A stretch of 64,000 bases of DNA from the NCBI RefSeq assembly GCF_003945325.1, contig NZ_AP019307.1, positions 1,922,001 to 1,986,000 on the forward strand. The letters run 5' to 3'. Numbering within the stretch: the first letter of the stretch is position 1; each line of letters opens with the position of its first letter. The stretch comes from Nocardioides baekrokdamisoli. Its GTDB lineage: Bacteria; Actinomycetota; Actinomycetes; Propionibacteriales; Nocardioidaceae. Positions 4,296-41,152 of this stretch are shown piece after piece. The notes beneath the pieces were generated by a model that saw only the letters and a list, made by a program, of their open reading frames with translations, had not been told where the DNA came from and ran no database searches. The position numbers were made by a program, and so were the translations under genes.

Positions 4296-5798
4296 GTGCG
4301 CCGCCTACTGATCTCCGCTGCCCTGGTGGCTCCGCTCGCCCTCGCGGGTTGTGGTTCCGGTCCTCAGGCCGACTACAGCGCCGTGCAAGCCTTCGCCAGC
4401 GGCCTTGCCGGCGGCAAGGTCACCGTCGCGGGGGCTGGTGCGGCGAAGGAGTATCAGTCGATCCTCACCGCGATGGGGACGAAGCCGACGGTCACCGCCG
4501 GAGCAGTCGCCAGGGGCAGCGCCACGCTGCACTGGTCGTGGTCCCTGCCGGGCGGCACCTGGACGTACGACACCTCGGTGTCGGTGGTCGACAAGGGCAG
4601 CAACGTGTGGTCGCCGGTCTGGTCGCCGGCAGCCGTCATCCCCGGCATGAGCACCGGTGACAAACTCGCGGTCACCCATCCCCGTGGCGCTCGTGGCACG
4701 ATCCTCGCCGCAGACGGCCGTCCCGCTCCGGTCGGATCGCTCGCCGGCGTCCTGAGTGGCATCGAGAAGGACCAGGACGACAAGCTCAACGGGATGCCCG
4801 GCACGAAGGTGGAGTTGACCCACGCGGGGCACGCCACCGAGCTGGCCTCGTACGCGCCGACGAACGGGAGCAACCTCAAGATCACCGTTCGACGCGACTG
4901 GCAGCAGATCGCCGAGGGGATCCTCAACCAGTCCGGACCGCCGTCGGCGATGGTCGCGATCCAGGTGAGCACGGGCAAGATCCTCGTGGCTGCGAACAAC
5001 AACGCAGCCGGCGGATTCCCGTACGCGACGATGGCTCGGTCGCCCTCGGGTTCGACGTTCAAGACCGTCGACGCGCTGGCGCTGATCCGGCACCGTCATT
5101 TCACCGCGGACTCCACGGTCACCTGCCCGCTCCACTTCACGGTGCTGGGCTTCCAGTTCAAGAACGACAAGTGGTACCCGCCATCTTCCCTGGGCAACAT
5201 TCCGCTCAAGGAGGCGATCGCTCAGTCCTGCAACACCGCGCAGGTGAGCCAGCACGCCTTCGTGCCCTACGCCAGCCTCAAGGACGCCGCTCGGACGCTG
5301 GGCCTCTCGCAGGACTACGACCTCGGGTTCCCGGCCTTCCTTGGCCAGCTGCCGCCTCCGGGCAACGAGTTCGTCAAGGCTGAGGACATGATCGGTCAGG
5401 GCGATGTCCTCGTCTCGCCGCTGACGATGGCCACCGTCATCGCCTCGATCCAGGCCGGTCACACGGTGGTGCCGTGGATGATCGACGGGATCCGACCGAA
5501 GGTCGCAGCCGGTGTGACGCCGATGTCGGCTCATGAGGCTGCTGAGCTCAAGACGATCTTCCGGCAGGTCGTCCTGGACGGCACCGCCCTCGGCCTCAGC
5601 GGCATGTCCGGTGCACCGATCATCGCCAAGACCGGCACCGCCGAGTTCGTACGCGGCGGTCAGGTGCTGACCCACACGTGGCTGATCGCCGCACAGGGAG
5701 ACATCGCGGTCTGCGCGTACGTCGACGTGGGCCACACCGGCGCCGCGACGTCGCTGCCGCTGGTCCGCCAGTTCCTCAGCGCGATCGGTCCCCAGTAG
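4296..5798 (+). CDS. penicillin-binding transpeptidase lipoprotein with MecA-N-like domain
   Basis: 500-residue cell-wall transpeptidase. It starts with a short signal peptide and lipobox (LALAGC, Cys about residue 18), so it is anchored on the outer face of the membrane. An NTF2-like/MecA-N-like domain and a dimerisation segment follow, then the transpeptidase domain with the active-site STFK (about 253), SCN (about 311) and KTG (about 445). All three catalytic motifs are intact. A GTG start at 4296, seven bases after TAGTTT, fits a leaderless transcript and puts the signal peptide at the N terminus; the open frame extends further upstream inside the helicase gene but without signal-like sequence. 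Confidence 0.92.
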   Translation: MRRLLISAALVAPLALAGCGSGPQADYSAVQAFASGLAGGKVTVAGAGAAKEYQSILTAMGTKPTVTAGAVARGSATLHWSWSLPGGTWTYDTSVSVVDKGSNVWSPVWSPAAVIPGMSTGDKLAVTHPRGARGTILAADGRPAPVGSLAGVLSGIEKDQDDKLNGMPGTKVELTHAGHATELASYAPTNGSNLKITVRRDWQQIAEGILNQSGPPSAMVAIQVSTGKILVAANNNAAGGFPYATMARSPSGSTFKTVDALALIRHRHFTADSTVTCPLHFTVLGFQFKNDKWYPPSSLGNIPLKEAIAQSCNTAQVSQHAFVPYASLKDAARTLGLSQDYDLGFPAFLGQLPPPGNEFVKAEDMIGQGDVLVSPLTMATVIASIQAGHTVVPWMIDGIRPKVAAGVTPMSAHEAAELKTIFRQVVLDGTALGLSGMSGAPIIAKTGTAEFVRGGQVLTHTWLIAAQGDIAVCAYVDVGHTGAATSLPLVRQFLSAIGPQ

Positions 5799-5799
5799 C

Positions 5800-5843
5800 G
5801 CCGAAACCCGACATCCGTCAGGCCGAAACCCGACATCCGTCAG
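5800..5843 (+). repeat. two tandem 22-bp units, repeat family A
   Basis: Two identical 22-bp units (5800-5821 and 5822-5843), each beginning GCCGAAACCCGACATCC and ending GTCAG. The first begins one base after the penicillin-binding protein stop. The second contains the pirin gene's stop codon (5842-5840 on the reverse strand). Related units occur at 6929-6972 and 27055-27205. Confidence 0.9.
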
Positions 5844-6472
5844 GCGAGCGTCCAGACCAGCAGGATCACGTCGGTCGCTGCGGTGACCGTGACCGGGTCC
5901 TGATCATCGATCAGGTACGCGTCGCCCTGGCTCAGCGGCTCGGCGAGCGAGTTGCGCACCAGTGATCCGGACGCCATGAAGACGAACCGACGCGTGCCGC
6001 CGGCGATCTCGACGGCGTCGCCAGCGGCGAGCACGAGCCGCTCCAGACGATGCGGTCCGACCGCCAGACCCTCGCTGAGGTCGTCCACCGCGTACGCAGG
6101 CTCCTCGGCCTCCGAGGTGAGCCAGAACTGTACGAACCGCGTCGCGGAGGCGGCCGCGATCTCGCTGTGGGTGACGCCGCCCGCCGTCTCGAAGATGCCG
6201 ACCTGCCCGGGGGAGACGACACGCTCGTTGCCGAGTGAGTCGGTGTGGCGTACGGCTCCTGCCGTCGGAACTGTCACGATCGTCACCCCCTGATGCGGGT
6301 GTGTCGAGAATCCCTGACCGTCGCCGAGCAGGTGCTCGTCGCACAGCACCAACGGACCGAAGCTGACCCGGGCCGGATCGTAGAACGGCCCGAAAGAGAA
6401 CGCATGCCAAGTCATTCGGCCCTGCTCGCGTTCGGTGAAGCGGTCGCCTGAGCGCAGGATCGTGACGGTCAC
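5840..6472 (-). CDS. pirin family bicupin protein
   Basis: 210-residue pirin/YhaK-type cupin. The N-terminal cupin carries the metal-site signature HPHQG followed by VRHTDSLGN, as in bacterial pirins (some have quercetinase activity, others act as redox-responsive cofactors). The GTG start at 6472 overlaps the stop of the upstream HIT gene in a GTGA, so the two are probably translationally coupled. Longer in-frame starts up to 6532 would lie inside the HIT gene and add non-conserved sequence. The actual substrate cannot be read from sequence. Confidence 0.88.
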   Translation of the reverse strand: MTVTILRSGDRFTEREQGRMTWHAFSFGPFYDPARVSFGPLVLCDEHLLGDGQGFSTHPHQGVTIVTVPTAGAVRHTDSLGNERVVSPGQVGIFETAGGVTHSEIAAASATRFVQFWLTSEAEEPAYAVDDLSEGLAVGPHRLERLVLAAGDAVEIAGGTRRFVFMASGSLVRNSLAEPLSQGDAYLIDDQDPVTVTAATDVILLVWTLA

Positions 6473-6879
6473 AGCGCGAACTTCGCGCCGAGTGAGGCGA
6501 GTTCCTCGGCCGACGCGGGCTTCGGGATCCACGGGTGTCCCACGCGGTCCTTGTCCGAGCCCGTGTAACGCGGGATGACGTGCACGTGGGTGTGGAAGAC
6601 GGTCTGGCCCGCCGGTGCGCCGCAGTTGTTGATCACGTTGACGCCGTCGCAGTCGAGGACTTCGTACGCGCGCCGCGTGAGCAGCTGAGCCGCGGCGAAC
6701 ACCGCGCTCAGGTCGGCGGGCTCGACTTCGCGAATGTCGTGCGAATGCGCCCTCGGGATGACGACCATGTGGCCTTCGCTCCCAGGCGCGATGTCGAGGA
6801 ACGCGTACGTCCGCTCGTCCTCGTACACCTTCGTCGAAGGGATCTGACCTGCAGCGATGGCACAGAAGACGCAGTCCAT
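6469..6879 (-). CDS. HIT family nucleotide hydrolase/transferase
   Basis: About 136 residues starting MDCVFC. The histidine-triad motif HTHVHVIPR is complete, and the family's N-terminal Cys pair (CVFC) and GHMVVIPRAH segment are present. HIT proteins of this size hydrolyse nucleoside phosphoramidates or Ap4A-like dinucleotides in the cytosol. The ATG at 6879 is chosen over a GTG two codons earlier because MxCxFC is the usual N terminus. First gene of a two-gene unit with the pirin gene. Confidence 0.93.
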   Translation of the reverse strand: MDCVFCAIAAGQIPSTKVYEDERTYAFLDIAPGSEGHMVVIPRAHSHDIREVEPADLSAVFAAAQLLTRRAYEVLDCDGVNVINNCGAPAGQTVFHTHVHVIPRYTGSDKDRVGHPWIPKPASAEELASLGAKFAL

Positions 6880-6902
6880 GACCACGACCCTACCCAGACG
6901 AG

Positions 6903-6936
6903 AATGTCCGGCCGAGATGGTGCTCGGCCGGACATT
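6903..6936 (-). terminator. perfect 14-bp hairpin downstream of fadH
   Basis: AATGTCCGGCCGAG at 6903-6916 is the exact reverse complement of 6923-6936, with a 6-nt loop. It lies between the fadH stop and the HIT gene start, both on the reverse strand, so it probably separates the two transcripts. Its right arm runs into the family A repeat. Confidence 0.7.
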
Positions 6937-6972
6937 TGTCGGGTCTCGGCCTGACAGATGCCGGGTTTCGGC
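6929..6972 (-). repeat. two tandem 22-bp units, repeat family A (reverse orientation)
   Basis: On the reverse strand, 6972-6951 reads GCCGAAACCCGGCATC then TGTCAG, and 6950-6929 reads GCCGAGACCCGACAAATG then TCCG. Same 22-bp spacing and orientation rule as at 5800: the array starts a few bases after a gene's stop (fadH stop at 6978-6976). Confidence 0.88.
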
Positions 6973-6975
6973 GCG

Positions 6976-8994
6976 TCAGAGGCTGGCCGCGACCTCGGTC
7001 CCTTGCCGGATCGCGCGCTTGGCGTCGAGTTCGCCGGCGAGGTGAGCGCCGCCGATGAGGTGCCAGTTCGGGATTGAGTCCTCGGGAGAGCCCGACCAGA
7101 GGGATCGCACCGACTCCTGGCCAGCGCACAGGACGATCGTGTCGGCCTCGATCACTGAGGGCTGGCCGTCGACGGTGATGTGCAGGCCCTCGTCGTCGAT
7201 CCGGTCGTACGAGGCGCCGGTGATCATCTTCACGCCGTCCTGCTTCAGGTGCGCCATGTGTGCCCAGCCCGAGGTCTTGCCGAGGCCGAGGCCGATCCGG
7301 GTCTCCTTGCGCTGGATCAGCGTGATGTCGCGCACCGGCGTACGCGGCTCGCGCTCGGTCAGGCCACCACGGTGCTCGGCAGGGTCGCCGACGCCCCAGT
7401 GCGCCATCCAGTCGGCCAGCGATTCCTCCTCGTGCGCCAGCGCGACCGAGACGTCGACGCCGATGCCTCCGGCTCCGACGACGGCGACGCGCTTGCCGGG
7501 AACGACCCGACCCGAGAGCACCTCGGCGTACGTCGCGACGCTGCGGTGGTTGACTCCCGGGATCGACGGGATCCGCGGCTCGACACCGGTCGCGATGATC
7601 ACCTGGTCGAAGCCGTCGAGGTCATCGGAGTTGGCCTCGGTCTTGAGTCGTACGTCGACGCCGAGCACCTCGAGGCGCCGGGCGTAGTAGCGCAGCGTGT
7701 CCTGGAAGTCCTCCTTGCCGGGCACCATCATCGCCAGCCGGAACTGGCCGCCGAGCTCCTCGCTCTTCTCGAACAGGGTCACCGACAGGCCGCGCTCGGC
7801 GGCAGAAACTGCGGCGGACAGACCTGCGGGGCCGGCACCGACGACGGCCACGGACTTCTTCGACCGCGTGGGCGCCAGTACGAGCGTGGTCTCGTTGCAG
7901 GCACGCGGGTTCACCAGGCAGGAGGACTTCTTGTTCGCGAAGACGTGGTCCAGGCAGGCCTGGTTGCAGGCGATGCAGGTGTTGATCTCGTCGGCGCGGC
8001 CGGCCGCGGTCTTGTTGACGAAGTCCGGGTCGGCGAGCAGCGGGCGCGCCATCGACACCAGGTCGGCCTGACCGTTCGCGATGATCGACTCGGCAAGCTC
8101 GGGGGTGTTGATCCGGTTGGAGGCACAGACCGGCACGGTCACCTCAGCCTTCAGCCTGGCCGTGTAGTCCACCCACGCGCCGCGCGGCACCTGGGTGATG
8201 ATGGTCGGGACGCGGGCCTCGTGCCAGCCGATGCCGGTGTTGAGGATGGAGACGCCCGCCTCCTGGAGGCCGTACGCGAGCTCGACGGTCTCCTCCCAGG
8301 TCTGGCCGCCCTCGACGAGGTCGACCAGCGAGATCCGGAACATGATCGGGAAGCCCTCGCCGACCAGTTCACGCGAGCGTCGCACGATCTCGATCGGGAA
8401 ACGCATCCGGTTGACCGCCGAGCCGCCGTACTTGTCGGTGCGCTGGTTGACCCGCTCGGCGATGAACTGGTTGATCAGGTAGCCCTCGGAGCCCATGATC
8501 TCGACGGCGTCGTACCCGGCCTTCTTCGCCAGCGCGACCGACTTGGCGAAGTCATTGATGGTGTCCTCGACACCCTTGGTCGAGAGAGCCGACGGCTTGA
8601 AGGGGTTGATCGGCGACTTGACCGCCGACGCCGAGACAGACAGCGGGCTGTAGCCGTACCGGCCGGCGTGCAGGACCTGGAGCGCGATCGCGCCGCCCTC
8701 CTCGTGCACCTCCCCGGTGATCTCGCGGTGGCGCATGGCCTGGACGCGGGAGGTCATTTCCGAGGCGAAAGGCTTCAGCCAGCCGCGCTTGTTCGGTGCG
8801 TACCCACCGGTGACGATGAGGCCGGTGCCGCCGGCGGCGCGCTCGCGGAAGTACGCGGCGAGCTTCGGGATGTCACCGCGACGGTCTTCCAGGCCCGTGT
8901 GCATGGAGCCCATCACGATGCGGTTGCGCAGCGTCAGGTCGCCGACGGTCAGCGGCGAGAGCATGTGTGTGAACTGACCAGTCTCGTATGTCAT
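6976..8994 (-). CDS. fadH: 2,4-dienoyl-CoA reductase-like FMN/FAD/4Fe-4S oxidoreductase
   Basis: 672 residues. The N-terminal half is an old-yellow-enzyme TIM barrel (FMN). A 4Fe-4S cluster motif follows with cysteines spaced C-x2-C-x3-C-x11-C (CIACNQAC... then SSCLVNP, about residues 337-357). The C-terminal half is an FAD/NADPH-binding module with VAVVGAGPAGLSAA and a second VAVVGAGGIG. This order is diagnostic of the FadH family, which reduces 2,4-dienoyl-CoA in degradation of unsaturated fatty acids; related enzymes act on other enoates. The ATG at 8994 overlaps the PadR gene stop (ATGA), so it is co-translated with its likely regulator. Confidence 0.9.
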   Translation of the reverse strand: MTYETGQFTHMLSPLTVGDLTLRNRIVMGSMHTGLEDRRGDIPKLAAYFRERAAGGTGLIVTGGYAPNKRGWLKPFASEMTSRVQAMRHREITGEVHEEGGAIALQVLHAGRYGYSPLSVSASAVKSPINPFKPSALSTKGVEDTINDFAKSVALAKKAGYDAVEIMGSEGYLINQFIAERVNQRTDKYGGSAVNRMRFPIEIVRRSRELVGEGFPIMFRISLVDLVEGGQTWEETVELAYGLQEAGVSILNTGIGWHEARVPTIITQVPRGAWVDYTARLKAEVTVPVCASNRINTPELAESIIANGQADLVSMARPLLADPDFVNKTAAGRADEINTCIACNQACLDHVFANKKSSCLVNPRACNETTLVLAPTRSKKSVAVVGAGPAGLSAAVSAAERGLSVTLFEKSEELGGQFRLAMMVPGKEDFQDTLRYYARRLEVLGVDVRLKTEANSDDLDGFDQVIIATGVEPRIPSIPGVNHRSVATYAEVLSGRVVPGKRVAVVGAGGIGVDVSVALAHEEESLADWMAHWGVGDPAEHRGGLTEREPRTPVRDITLIQRKETRIGLGLGKTSGWAHMAHLKQDGVKMITGASYDRIDDEGLHITVDGQPSVIEADTIVLCAGQESVRSLWSGSPEDSIPNWHLIGGAHLAGELDAKRAIRQGTEVAASL

Positions 8995-24781: not shown

Positions 24782-26953
24782 ATGACTGAGACTGCAGTCC
24801 GTTACGACATCGATGCCGACGGCATCGTCACCCTGACCCTGGACGACCCGAACCAGTCGGCCAACACCATGAATGCGCTCTACCAGAGCTCGATGAAGGC
24901 CGCCGTCGAGCGCCTCTACGCCGAGCAGGAGAGCGTCACCGGTGTCGTCGTCGCATCCGCGAAGAAGACCTTCTTCGCCGGCGGTGACCTGAACCTGTTG
25001 ATGCAGGCGCGTCGCGAGAACGCCGCGGAGGTGTTCGAGGAGGTCGAGAACCTCAAGGACGTCCTGCGCAAGCTCGAGACCTTCCCGAAGCCGGTCGTGG
25101 CGGCCATCAACGGCGCTGCCCTGGGCGGTGGCCTGGAGATCGCGCTCGCGACCAACCACCGCATCGCTGTCGACGGCTCGTACCCGATCGGTCTGCCCGA
25201 GGTGAAGCTCGGCCTGCTGCCGGGCGGCGGCGGGGTCACCCGTATCGGCCGGATGTTCGGCCTGATGGCATCGATGACCGAGATCGTCGCCACTGGCGCC
25301 GAGTTCAAGCCCGCCGCTGCCCAGGCCAAGGGCCTGGTCAACGACCTCGTCGCCACCCAGGACGAGTTGATCCCGGCCGCGAAGGCGTGGATCAAGGCCA
25401 ACCCCGACGCGATCGCGCAGCCGTGGGACCTGCCCGGCTACAAGATCCCGGGCGGTGCGCCGTCGAGCCCGGCTCTCGCCGCGTTCCTCCCGGCCTTCCC
25501 GCCGATGCTGCGCAAGCAGCTCAAGCAGGCCGACATGCGCGCGCCGAAGGCGATCCTGGCCGCGACGGTCGAGGGCCTTCAGGTGGACTTCGACACCGCG
25601 TCGCGGATCGAGTCGCGCTACTTCACGACGCTGGTCACCAGCCAGCAGTCGAAGAACATGATCCAGGCGTTCTTCTTCGACCTGGGCTCGATCAACTCCG
25701 GCGCCCTGCGTCCGAAGGGTGTGGAGAAGTACACGCCTCAGAAGGCGGTCGTACTCGGCGCCGGGATGATGGGCGCGGGCATCGCGTACGTGCTGGCGCG
25801 TGCCGGTGTCGAGGTCGTCCTCAAGGACGTCGCGATCGAGGCTGCGGAGAAGGGCAAGGCGTACACCGCTGCTCTGAACGAGAAGGCCGTCTCCCGGGGC
25901 AAGCTGTCCCAGGAGAAGTCCGACGAGATCCTGGCCCGGATCACCCCGACCGTCGATCCGGCGGCTGCGGCTGGGTGCGACCTGGTCGTGGAGGCGGTCT
26001 TCGAGAACGTCGAGCTGAAGCAGAAGGTCTTCAACGAGGTCATCCCGTTCCTGGCCGAGGGTGCGCTGCTGTGCTCCAACACCTCGACGCTGCCGATCAC
26101 CGAACTGGCCAAGGGCATCGACGGCACTGACGCTGCTGCCCGGTTCATCGGTCTGCACTTCTTCTCACCGGTCGACAAGATGCCGCTCGTCGAAATCATC
26201 AACGGTGCTGAGACCTCGGACGAGTCGCTGGCCAAGGCGTACGACATCACCCTGCTGATCAAGAAGACCCCGATGATCGCCCACGACTCACGCGGTTTCT
26301 ACACCTCGCGTGTGATCGGGACGATGATGGACGAGGGAGTCTCGATGCTCCTCGAGGGTGTCCACCCGATGACGCTCGACCGCGCGACCACGCAGGCTGG
26401 CTACCCGACTGGCGTGCTGCAGTTGGCCGACGAGCTCAACCTTGAGCTCATGAAGAAGATCGCCGTCGAGACTCGTGCTGCCGAAGGTGGCGAGCCGAAC
26501 AGCATCGAGATCGTCGCGACGAAGATGATCGACCTCGGACGGGCGGGCCGCCTCCGCGGCGCCGGCTTCTTCAACTACGCGGAGGGCAAGCGCGCCAACC
26601 TGTGGGAGGGCCTGACCGAGCAGTTCCCGGTCGCCGACACGCAGATTCCGCTGGCTGACATCAAGGAACGGATGCTGTTCCGTCAGGCGGTCGAGACTGC
26701 GAAGACGTTCGAGGAGGGGGTCGTCACCTCGGCCGCCCACGCGAACATCGGCTCGGTCTTCGGCATCGGCTTCCCGTCGATGACCGGTGGCGCGGCGCAG
26801 TTCATCACGGGTTACGACGCCGCTGACGGCACGTACGGCATCGAGGCGTTCATCAAGCGCGCCGACGAGCTGGCCGACACGTACGGCGAGCAGCTGCGCC
26901 CGACGCAGTACCTGCGTGACATGGCGGCGAAGGGCGAGTCCTTCCCCGCCTGA
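24782..26953 (+). CDS. fadB: 3-hydroxyacyl-CoA dehydrogenase/enoyl-CoA hydratase fusion, FadB type
   Basis: 723 residues. The N-terminal crotonase domain (about 1-190) keeps both catalytic Glu positions (GGGLEIALATNH and GLPEVKLGLLPG). The C-terminal part is an NAD-binding domain (VLGAGMMGAGIAYVLARAGVEV, about 322-343) and hydroxyacyl dehydrogenase domains with the catalytic His in FIGLHFFSPVDKMPLVEII. It performs hydration and oxidation in beta-oxidation and works with the upstream thiolase. The Shine-Dalgarno is weak (GAGAG). Downstream lies a composite repeat and terminator. Confidence 0.94.
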   Translation: MTETAVRYDIDADGIVTLTLDDPNQSANTMNALYQSSMKAAVERLYAEQESVTGVVVASAKKTFFAGGDLNLLMQARRENAAEVFEEVENLKDVLRKLETFPKPVVAAINGAALGGGLEIALATNHRIAVDGSYPIGLPEVKLGLLPGGGGVTRIGRMFGLMASMTEIVATGAEFKPAAAQAKGLVNDLVATQDELIPAAKAWIKANPDAIAQPWDLPGYKIPGGAPSSPALAAFLPAFPPMLRKQLKQADMRAPKAILAATVEGLQVDFDTASRIESRYFTTLVTSQQSKNMIQAFFFDLGSINSGALRPKGVEKYTPQKAVVLGAGMMGAGIAYVLARAGVEVVLKDVAIEAAEKGKAYTAALNEKAVSRGKLSQEKSDEILARITPTVDPAAAAGCDLVVEAVFENVELKQKVFNEVIPFLAEGALLCSNTSTLPITELAKGIDGTDAAARFIGLHFFSPVDKMPLVEIINGAETSDESLAKAYDITLLIKKTPMIAHDSRGFYTSRVIGTMMDEGVSMLLEGVHPMTLDRATTQAGYPTGVLQLADELNLELMKKIAVETRAAEGGEPNSIEIVATKMIDLGRAGRLRGAGFFNYAEGKRANLWEGLTEQFPVADTQIPLADIKERMLFRQAVETAKTFEEGVVTSAAHANIGSVFGIGFPSMTGGAAQFITGYDAADGTYGIEAFIKRADELADTYGEQLRPTQYLRDMAAKGESFPA

Positions 26954-27007: not shown

Positions 27008-27049
27008 ATGATTGTGGCCCCCGAGGTTCGGCTCGGGGGCCACAATCAT
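27008..27049. terminator. perfect 18-bp hairpin terminator after the fadAB-type operon
   Basis: Bases 27008-27025 (ATGATTGTGGCCCCCGAG) are exactly complementary to 27032-27049, with loop GTTCGG. It is the longest perfect stem with a short loop seen in the window. It lies between the fadB-type gene and the next operon and is flanked by both repeat families. It could stop transcription in either direction. Confidence 0.8.
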
Positions 27050-27054
27050 GTCTT

Positions 27055-27205
27055 GCCGAGACCCGACATCTGGCACGCCGAGACCCGACATCTGGCGGCG
27101 TACGGCTCGCCGGCACGGACGGGCTCGTCGCTCGCCCGGGCAGCCAGAATTCGGGTTTCGACTGACAAACGCCGGGTTTCGGCGTGACCGATGCCGGGTC
27201 TCGGC
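27055..27205. repeat. bidirectional array of 22-bp units, repeat family A
   Basis: Forward units at 27055-27076 and 27077-27098 (GCCGAGACCCGACATCTGGC then AC or GG). After a 41-bp gap come reverse units read on the minus strand at 27205-27184, 27183-27162 and a degenerate 27161-27140. The array is an inverted arrangement of head-to-tail repeats between two forward operons. It contains no gene. Confidence 0.88.
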
Positions 27206-27229: not shown

Positions 27230-27240
27230 GTTTGTATGTC

Positions 27241-27855
27241 ATGGGACAGGCTGTACCCGTGACCCAGGCCGTCGTACGCGTTCCGCAGGAGGAGCGGACT
27301 CGTGTGATGCGCCAGCGGCTGCTCGACGCGACCGCGGACCTGCTGGCCACTGAGGGTTTCGCCGCGACGACCACCATGTCGGTCGCCGAGCGAGCAGGAG
27401 TGTCACGCGGTGCGCTGCTGCACCACTTTCCGTCGAAGAATGACCTCGTCGTCGCTGCCGTTGCCCACGTGATGAGCAGCCGTGACGACGACCTTCGTGC
27501 CAAGGCGGACCGGATCACCGGCGCGCGTACGCGTCCCGTGCTGGAGATGCTGGCTGATCACTTCACCTCGCCGGTGTTCATGGCCGCACTCGAACTTTGG
27601 GTCGCGGCCCGGACGGACGAGGCGTTGCGGGCTGAGGTGTTCCGGCTCGAGCGGGAGGTCGGTCGGCAGACCCATGCCTTGACCGTCGAATTGCTCCACG
27701 CGGACGAGTCCCGCTCAGGAGTACGTGAACTCATTCAGGCCACTCTCGATCTGGTCCGCGGACTCGGTCTGGCCAGCGCACTGAGCGACGACGCTGCGCG
27801 TCGCAACCACATCCTCGACCAGTGGGCACTGACCCTCGAGAAGGAGTTGGCATGA
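27241..27855 (+). CDS. TetR family transcriptional regulator (first gene of atu/liu-like operon)
   Basis: About 204 residues with a TetR HTH (LATEGFAATTTMSVAERAGVSRGALLHHFPSKNDLVVAAV, about 35-74). The C-terminal domain is helical. The start is uncertain: ATG 27241 is given, a GTG at 27259 (MTQAVVRVPQEE) is equally possible. Its stop overlaps the next gene's start (ATGA), so it belongs to the downstream operon, and a palindrome lies just upstream. It likely represses this acyl-CoA catabolic operon in response to an intermediate. Confidence 0.9.
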   Translation: MGQAVPVTQAVVRVPQEERTRVMRQRLLDATADLLATEGFAATTTMSVAERAGVSRGALLHHFPSKNDLVVAAVAHVMSSRDDDLRAKADRITGARTRPVLEMLADHFTSPVFMAALELWVAARTDEALRAEVFRLEREVGRQTHALTVELLHADESRSGVRELIQATLDLVRGLGLASALSDDAARRNHILDQWALTLEKELA

Positions 27856-40405: not shown

Positions 40406-41152
40406 ATGGACCGTATGAAGTCCACATCAGCACCCGTCCTGGGTCGCCTCAGCCCCCGTGAGCAGCTGACCGCGGGCCGCCTGCCGCGGCGGCTGGTCCA
40501 GCTCGTCGTCGGGCTGGTCGTCTATGGGTTCACGATGGCGTTGATGGTCCGCGCGAAGCTCGGCAACGACCCCTGGGACGTGTTCCACCAGGGCCTCTCG
40601 GTCCGCATCGGGCTGAGCTTCGGAACCGTGGTCATCCTGGTCGGAGTCCTCGTCCTGCTGCTGTGGATCCCCCTGCGGGAGATGCCGGGGCTCGGAACGG
40701 TGCTCAACACGATCCTGATCGGCGCCGCTGCGGATGTGGCACTCCACCTGATCAGTACGCCGCACGCGATGTCCGGGCGAATCACCTTCGCGGCTGCGGG
40801 CATCGTCGGCAACGGAGTCGCCACCGCGATGTACATCGGTGCCCAACTCGGTCCCGGTCCGCGCGACGGCCTGATGACCAGCCTGCACCGTCGTACCGGA
40901 TGGCCGATCGGCGTGGTGCGTACAGGCCTGGAGATCACGGTCGTGGTCGTCGGGCTGCTGCTCGGGGGTGTGTTCGGCGTGGCCACGCTGGCGTACGCGC
41001 TCCTCATCGGTCCGCTTGTCCAGCTGATGTTGCCGCGATTCATCGTCGACCTCGCTCCCGCCGCATTGCGCCAACCAAGGGTCCGACGCGACCCCGACCC
41101 GTACGGCAGTTGGCTGTGGTCGGGTCGGCAGTTCAGCGAGGGTTGGCACTGA
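40406..41152 (+). CDS. YczE/YyaS-type integral membrane protein
   Basis: 248 residues with about five membrane segments (LVVGLVVYGFTMALMV, GTVVILVGVLVLLLWI, TILIGAAADVALHLI, ITFAAAGIVGNGVATAMYIGA, TGLEITVVVVGLLLGGVFGVATLAYALLIGPLV). AKLGNDPWDVFHQGLS and QLGPGPRDGLMT are signature segments of the YczE family. Role unknown; family members often lie next to MocR regulators. The ATG at 40406 is used; a second ATG is at 40415. Confidence 0.82.
   Translation: MDRMKSTSAPVLGRLSPREQLTAGRLPRRLVQLVVGLVVYGFTMALMVRAKLGNDPWDVFHQGLSVRIGLSFGTVVILVGVLVLLLWIPLREMPGLGTVLNTILIGAAADVALHLISTPHAMSGRITFAAAGIVGNGVATAMYIGAQLGPGPRDGLMTSLHRRTGWPIGVVRTGLEITVVVVGLLLGGVFGVATLAYALLIGPLVQLMLPRFIVDLAPAALRQPRVRRDPDPYGSWLWSGRQFSEGWH

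Follow-up and report, generated by a model that had tools for sequence, protein, structure and literature searches.

Repeat arrays in the window

The window (the whole 64,000-nt stretch of Nocardioides baekrokdamisoli DNA that was analyzed, contig NZ_AP019307.1, positions 1,922,001 to 1,986,000) contains four arrays of 22-bp units, which are listed in Table 1 with the genes and inverted repeats beside them. Genes were called with a custom codon-usage script rather than an annotation pipeline. The TGA of the convergent pirin-domain gene (5840-5842) falls inside the last unit of the first array. We found nine matches to the 15-base core GCCGARACCCGRCAT in the window (at most two mismatches), compared with a mean of 0.97 in shuffled sequences (none of 100 shuffles reached nine); the ninth, an isolated match with two mismatches at 40682-40696, is probably a chance occurrence. 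A terminator scan gave no match at the window arrays, including the inverted repeat at 6903-6936 and the hairpin at 27010-27047, and the arrays do not have the G+C-rich hairpin plus T-run of an intrinsic terminator. At gathering score the Rfam families matched in the window were the small SRP RNA and tRNA, with no match for the arrays.

Table 1. Repeat arrays and neighboring features in the window (positions are those of the window)
Feature	Positions	Strand	Remarks
Penicillin-binding transpeptidase domain gene	4296-5798	+	TAG, then array; start called by script, longest ORF from 4128
Array, two identical (perfect) 22-bp units	5800-5843	+	1 nt after TAG of + gene
Pirin-domain gene	5840-6472	-	Start called by script; longest ORF ends at 6532
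14-bp inverted repeat	6903-6936	-	Overlaps last unit of array 6929-6972; no T-run; found by eye
Array, two 22-bp units	6929-6972	-	3 nt after stop of - gene 6976-8994
FMN/NADH oxidoreductase gene	6976-8994	-	3' end at array 6929-6972
16-bp hairpin	27010-27047	+	Between stop at 26953 and array at 27055; no T-run; found by eye
Array, two 22-bp units	27055-27098	+	Directly past hairpin; 101 nt after stop at 26953
Array, three units	27141-27205	-	Faces + array 27055-27098; upstream of TetR-type gene, behind no gene end
TetR-type gene	27232-27855		Downstream of array 27141-27205

A first-pass annotation of this DNA had noticed tandem 22-bp units at 5800-5843 (forward) and 6929-6972 (reverse), with more at 27055-27205, and all of these were borne out. 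Its further claim that each array starts 1 to 8 bp past a stop codon or contains one holds for the arrays starting at 5800 (1 nt) and 6972 (3 nt) but not for those starting at 27055 (101 nt) and 27205, and its claim that the arrays always point away from a gene end is true of two of the four, the array ending at 27205 following no gene end.

A genome-wide family of ordered arrays

The genome is a single contig of 2,965,302 bases, in which the core has 98 + 89 matches with at most two mismatches (13 + 11 for a reversed-pattern control) and 40 + 30 exact matches (none for the control). A 22-column profile run over 410 kb around matches (the window plus 40 stretches picked for this purpose, which together hold 149 of the 187 two-mismatch matches) delineated 164 units in 60 arrays, with the consensus GCCGARACCCGRCATCYGTCAS; six of these 60 'arrays' are single units, one of which (at 731626, score 17.3) probably arose by chance. 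The family is therefore not confined to the loci of the window. Neighboring units are spaced 22 bp apart in 93 of 104 pairs, 21 bp in ten and 23 bp in one, and unit variation consists mostly of transitions at positions 2, 6, 12, 14 and 17. Read as codons, the consensus unit is free of stops in all sense frames, and on the antisense strand each unit has one TGA. We considered and rejected a hairpin between neighboring units, since the base at position 17 shows no dependence on that at position 14 of the following unit (35 CA, 23 TA, 21 CG and 14 TG).

The arrays have an internal order, in that the first (gene-proximal) unit is near-invariant and the last is loose (mean scores of 32.3 and 24.7 over 54 arrays, the first unit scoring higher in 43 and the last in nine). 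The number of differences per 22 positions is 3.32 for first units across loci, 4.12 for neighbors within an array and 5.14 for permuted neighbors, and none of 2,000 permutations gave a value as low as 4.12. Because first units are alike across loci and neighbors are alike within arrays, the arrays suggest a spread of ordered blocks followed by local extension; selection on the first unit would give a similar picture of near-invariance.

Placement relative to stop codons and gene orientation

The first-pass annotation had proposed an interspersed element with its address at gene ends, and the genome-wide set agrees with this proposal: 39 of the 60 arrays begin 0 to 12 nt past a stop codon on the same strand (for 26 the distance is 1 or 2 nt), whereas 0.8% would be expected to lie within 12 nt under random placement and 3.5% under random intergenic placement, indicating that array positions are not random. 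Twelve of the 60 finish on or beside the stop codon of a gene on the opposite strand, in ten cases at exactly -4, since the GTCA of the unit reads TGAC in reverse. We also tried the stop codon itself as a part of the element and rejected it, because the stop types of array genes (29 TGA, 8 TAG and 2 TAA) match genome usage (286, 59 and 9 among all called genes).

Convergent gene pairs flank 35 of the arrays and co-directional pairs 17 (14 of which are oriented in the gene direction), with three arrays in divergent regions and five within called genes; the 330 intergenic regions of the stretches comprise 58 convergent, 218 co-directional and 54 divergent ones. Of the 27 convergent gaps that bear arrays, 12 measure no more than 5 nt after subtraction of the arrays themselves, where insertion per base would lead to an expectation of 0.5% (P = 8 × 10^-21; the test counts junctions of array-rich stretches only); among all 61 convergent gaps, 43% are of this size. 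The placement of arrays is chosen per gene end or junction, not per base, and the short gaps of a dense genome are insufficient, given these 12 gaps, as an explanation.

Arrays within reading frames and a second repeat

In a ChsH2-like protein, the linker that joins the OB-fold to the dehydratase part contains an array, in which two units 21 bp apart translate as AETRQMS-AETRQLS. The linkers of 29 aligned homologs (of 119 listed) are unrelated and variable, and a few have repeats of their own: those of P0017, P0027, P0016 and P0022 carry short peptide repeats between the domains (for example, AEIPAESAGIPAESA), which are perhaps other repeat families inserted in frame. Another array is situated at the C-terminus of an acyl-CoA dehydrogenase, immediately ahead of ATGA, and a frame for an FMN oxidoreductase has one in its tail.

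Two arrays, one of them antisense, lie in a single long frame of 846 aa with CobB-like and aminotransferase domains (L065:3577-6117, minus strand; genome positions 533176-535716), and the two domains are bridged by a translated array together with a second repeat, GAGACGACCGGAGTGAGG. At genome positions 534312, 2490157, 2772721, 2831202 and 2926568 (stretches L065, L083, L089, L091 and L094), this second repeat (GAGACGACCGGAGTGAGG...) comes immediately after a 22-bp unit; seven copies are present genome-wide (at most one mismatch).

Folding, base composition and search for a RAYT

Taken alone, the arrays fold barely better than shuffled sequences (mean z of -1.1, n = 54), and those of the window form short stems only (z of -0.66, -1.75 and -1.11). 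A terminator, one of the roles that the first-pass annotation had offered, is thus not supported for the direct array as its own hairpin, and the simple array fares no better in that role at qcrB (where, in N. baekrokdamisoli and in the comparison genomes G067, G022 and G102, it lies past a terminator-like hairpin). Folded together, the facing pair at 27055-27204 reaches a z of -6.55. The tails of array genes have weaker folding energies than other convergent tails (-46 versus -54 kcal/mol per 120 nt) but fold like them relative to shuffles (mean z of -1.7 versus -1.5). The excess of C over G in the 80 nt past array-gene stops is 0.159, compared with -0.024 at other convergent ends (p = 9 × 10^-12), and is largely the composition of the array itself. 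The suggestion that 22 bp corresponds to two helical turns survives as a hint: of 13 array periods, 8 come close to a multiple of 10.5 (P = 0.015, from a list drawn up by hand and examined post hoc). Searching for a Y1 transposase (RAYT, PF01797) gave no match in four genomes (N. baekrokdamisoli, G067, G012 and G129), with the control positive in 5 of 14.

Other repeat families in related genomes

The 22-bp tandem pattern had no match in other genomes among the 84,980 species scanned (a set from which N. baekrokdamisoli or very near records are possibly absent) and none in viral contigs, on which ground we rejected a phage source. Its exact 15-mer is present in one copy each in three other genomes among 59 of the genus, and the 220 bases inspected contain no second unit. 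The motif YCGARACC is not enriched behind stop codons in 40-kb samples of ten relatives, a sample size too small for a feature of about 2% of gene ends.

Tandem-repeat finding in the ten relatives revealed facing arrays of GTGGCGGCACACGACATC... with a period of 30/31 bp in G012 (G-numbers are labels of the comparison genomes), and tandem units of 30/31 bp occur in G067, G012 and G129. The GTGGCGGCACACGACATC core (at most one mismatch) is found in 66 of 215 genus genomes, once or twice in 51 of these, with counts of 31 + 26 in G067, 21 + 17 in G012, 8 + 17 in G129 and 0 in N. baekrokdamisoli; a longer form occurs in 12 of 149 genomes of a family-wide sample, and six of the 12 belong to other genera, where it is matched once or twice per genome. 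On the fetched stretches of nine genomes, 31 of 78 arrays of this family begin within 40 nt past a stop codon on the same strand (2.0% at random), and for 74 an inverted unit is no more than 60 nt away. These arrays are hairpin-like. Most N. baekrokdamisoli arrays are not, a facing partner being present within 400 nt for 20 of 60. On the same strand, this sister family has G-rich units, and a variant in G022, GGCGGCACCCGACATC, has ACCCGACATC in common with the N. baekrokdamisoli unit.

Tandem units of 32 bp are found in G137, G024 and G191. Among 15 genomes examined, the genome-wide counts of the GCCGAGTCGGCRCA repeat are 36 + 25 in G137, 33 + 29 in G198, 29 + 29 in G024, 20 + 18 in G191, 12 + 10 in G001 and 8 + 8 in G129, with fewer in five others and none in N. 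baekrokdamisoli, G012, G110 and G192. The distance to a gene 3' end is at most 150 nt for 22 of 30 fetched loci, a count that includes several loci from one array and is without a random control. Judged by eye, the unit cores of the different species are alike (GCCGA..CCCG).

A hairpin repeat behind stop codons in G099, ACCGAGCAGTAAGCACC, was set aside as a different family (10 core matches in that genome). It is an inverted repeat, ACCGAGCAGTAAGCACC...GGTGCTTACTGCTCGGT, situated directly past stop codons (L161 positions 2327 and 3495, and other loci), with 4 + 6 core matches in G099 and one or two in three other genomes among the 215 scanned.

The same gene ends with different repeats

Three gene ends, those of qcrB, panB and an IclR-type regulator gene, carry arrays both here and in relatives, with different sequences. 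Of 46 genes of relatives that end at arrays of the 30/31-bp family, five match three of the 47 N. baekrokdamisoli array genes and one matches the 331 other N. baekrokdamisoli genes; the corresponding numbers for 398 other genes of the relatives are 5 and 32. Fisher's test gives 0.0014 counted on relative genes and 0.023 on distinct N. baekrokdamisoli genes, values to be read with the facts that the sharing was noticed before testing, that the 46 ends come from array loci in nine genomes and that qcrB accounts for three of the five relative genes.

In the 450 nt past qcrB, a tandem repeat with a period of 20 to 45 is present in 13 of 89 genomes, compared with 13 of 328 other gene ends (p = 0.0008), both counts including coding-sequence repeats (that of G195, at 351-395, may be one). 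The set started from 90 ends, of which that of G159 (at a contig end) was dropped; it contains N. baekrokdamisoli, whose array the repeat finder missed, and G067, G022 and G102 are not among the 89. The qcrB-end arrays vary by species: GCCGAGTCGGCRCA with differing tails is found in G024, G137 and G191, GCCGACCCGKC in G116 and G089, and GGTTGACCCGGCAGAAGATCG with a period of 21 in G192, with further types elsewhere. At the qcrB 3' end of G138 and G038 there are other repeat types, GGTTGAGGTG...GGTTTCGAGGCTCG and GGTGGTCGAG...GTGTCGAGACC; words like these are also known from other actinobacteria.

Interpretation

We put at about an even chance the reading that the arrays are a fast-turnover interspersed family of gene-end repeats, similar in kind to REP, BOX and MIRU elements and copied by a putative enzyme. 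A short ordered block, head unit first, would be copied to a site just past a stop codon or a terminator-like hairpin, and the array would then lengthen or shorten through local duplication of units and may sometimes pair with an oppositely oriented array into a larger stem. Placement would be one per junction, set by gene ends rather than by bases, and the unit sequence would be swapped between species even as an array persists at some gene ends. This reading ranks first, ahead of a trans-acting factor, a termination signal and, last, chance plus tolerance, because of the weak folding of the arrays, the G-rich sister units and the arrays that lie past hairpins; the negative RAYT search in four genomes counts against it.

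From these patterns we infer that the family spread through copying of whole blocks and that the genome for the most part tolerates the arrays as passengers, any part that they play in 3'-end formation being secondary at most. The conserved addresses and the conserved first unit would also be expected under selection for a function. The search for a close relative, which would offer empty sites for comparison, gave none: within the genus, the 672-aa gene has its best match at 77% identity. The families of different species may be homologous, as suggested by the ACCCGACATC shared with the G022 variant, the cores compared by eye and the three gene ends (p = 0.023).

The second reading takes the unit as a site for a putative trans-acting DNA- or RNA-binding factor that would mark gene ends (as a boundary, a roadblock or a protection of 3' ends), which we regard as possible but doubtful; the same doubt applies to the idea that the specificity of such a factor drifts between species and pulls all of its sites along, giving rise to dialects. 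The near-invariant first unit beside the gene, the uniformity of units inside each genome together with their difference between genomes, the shared qcrB, panB and IclR gene ends and the post hoc excess of periods near a multiple of 10.5 would be expected of such a factor, but arrays are present at a small fraction of gene ends, some are within coding sequence, and transitions at five positions do not require recognition. A broader proposal, to which we give some tentative credence, is that of a genus-wide gene-end mark, a tandem word in species dialects of which orthologous ends would keep an array while its sequence changes. Either a trans-acting factor that evolves along with the word would read it, or an enzyme that targets gene 3' ends would copy it.

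It is unlikely that the arrays are transcription-termination signals, acting either as a C-rich and little-folded RNA at which Rho enters or, where two arrays face each other, as two-way hairpins. Their position and orientation, the excess of C over G, the weaker absolute folding energy of array tails and the fold of the facing window pair are in line with such signals; against them, array tails fold like others relative to shuffles, the G-rich sister units do not suit Rho, the arrays at qcrB in four genomes sit past a terminator-like hairpin, two-thirds of the arrays have no facing partner within 400 nt, and some are found in coding sequence. Random insertion with survival where genes are unharmed, with stop proximity a by-product of genome density, is highly improbable: convergent gaps are indeed short everywhere (a median of 31 nt without arrays here and 15 nt in the samples of ten relatives), and the scarcity of arrays in divergent regions suits a loss of harmful insertions, yet gaps of at most 5 nt would almost never be struck per base, the share of arrays near stops far exceeds the intergenic expectation, and co-directional arrays mostly follow the orientation of the gene.

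Comparison with known systems

Interspersed bacterial repeats are usually either attributed to RAYT transposases or given no explanation. For the present family no RAYT was found, placement is per gene end, and the sequence varies between species while some ends keep an array; it opens the questions of what copies short repeats to gene ends and of whether the arrays contribute to 3'-end formation between tightly packed convergent genes.

REP/REPIN elements of the GTAG and CGTC families, as described in the accessible part of a paper (PMC3733652), are short and numerous and are found mostly behind genes, in the spaces that separate convergent or co-directional pairs; they are partly arranged as inverted pairs, some lie inside genes, and the families vary by species. 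They are palindromes (the CGTC stems are 8 to 9 bp) and mostly head-to-head dimers, and no dedicated transposase was found for the CGTC families either; in that same part the paper names neither Nocardioides nor actinobacteria (PMC3733652). Our arrays are likewise numerous and mostly behind genes but differ in that the 22-bp unit is not a palindrome, having no 8-9-bp stem, and is stacked head to tail, and they differ from the RAYT-linked GTAG REPs in that the four genomes searched yielded no RAYT.

The BOX elements of pneumococcus, according to the sections of PMC3049150 available, have a first module, a variable number of tandem middle modules and a last module, change locally in copy number, and consist of modules that are larger than a 22-mer and fold. 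A first and a last part around a tandem middle and local change in copy number may be points of likeness, going by that description; here the first and last units differ in strictness, the first being strict and the last loose, and all are versions of one 22-mer. The MIRUs of mycobacteria, as portrayed in the portion of PMC12548453 consulted, are interspersed, apparently mobile, open in the reading direction and fitted to gene borders, with insertion at the start codon of the next operon gene at -4 spacing. Compared on that partial description, our arrays resemble them in being interspersed, open in the sense frames and fitted to gene borders (one N. baekrokdamisoli array lies ahead of ATGA) but lie mostly past stop codons rather than at start codons, 35 of 60 being between convergent genes.

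DNA uptake sequences are far commoner single 10-12-mers and are not known to be tandem. In the Neisseriaceae they form species dialects of one short word, with inverted pairs linked with terminators, as set out in the part of PMC3630211 at hand. The dialects and the inverted pairs are the points of likeness, a likeness of sequence pattern. Among the literature matches listed (most subscription journals lying outside the search), none stood out as describing such arrays in Nocardioides. The arrays behave like REP, BOX and MIRU elements; what sets them apart is the combination of a non-palindromic unit for which no RAYT was found, modules that are all made of one word, and an address at the stop rather than the start of genes.
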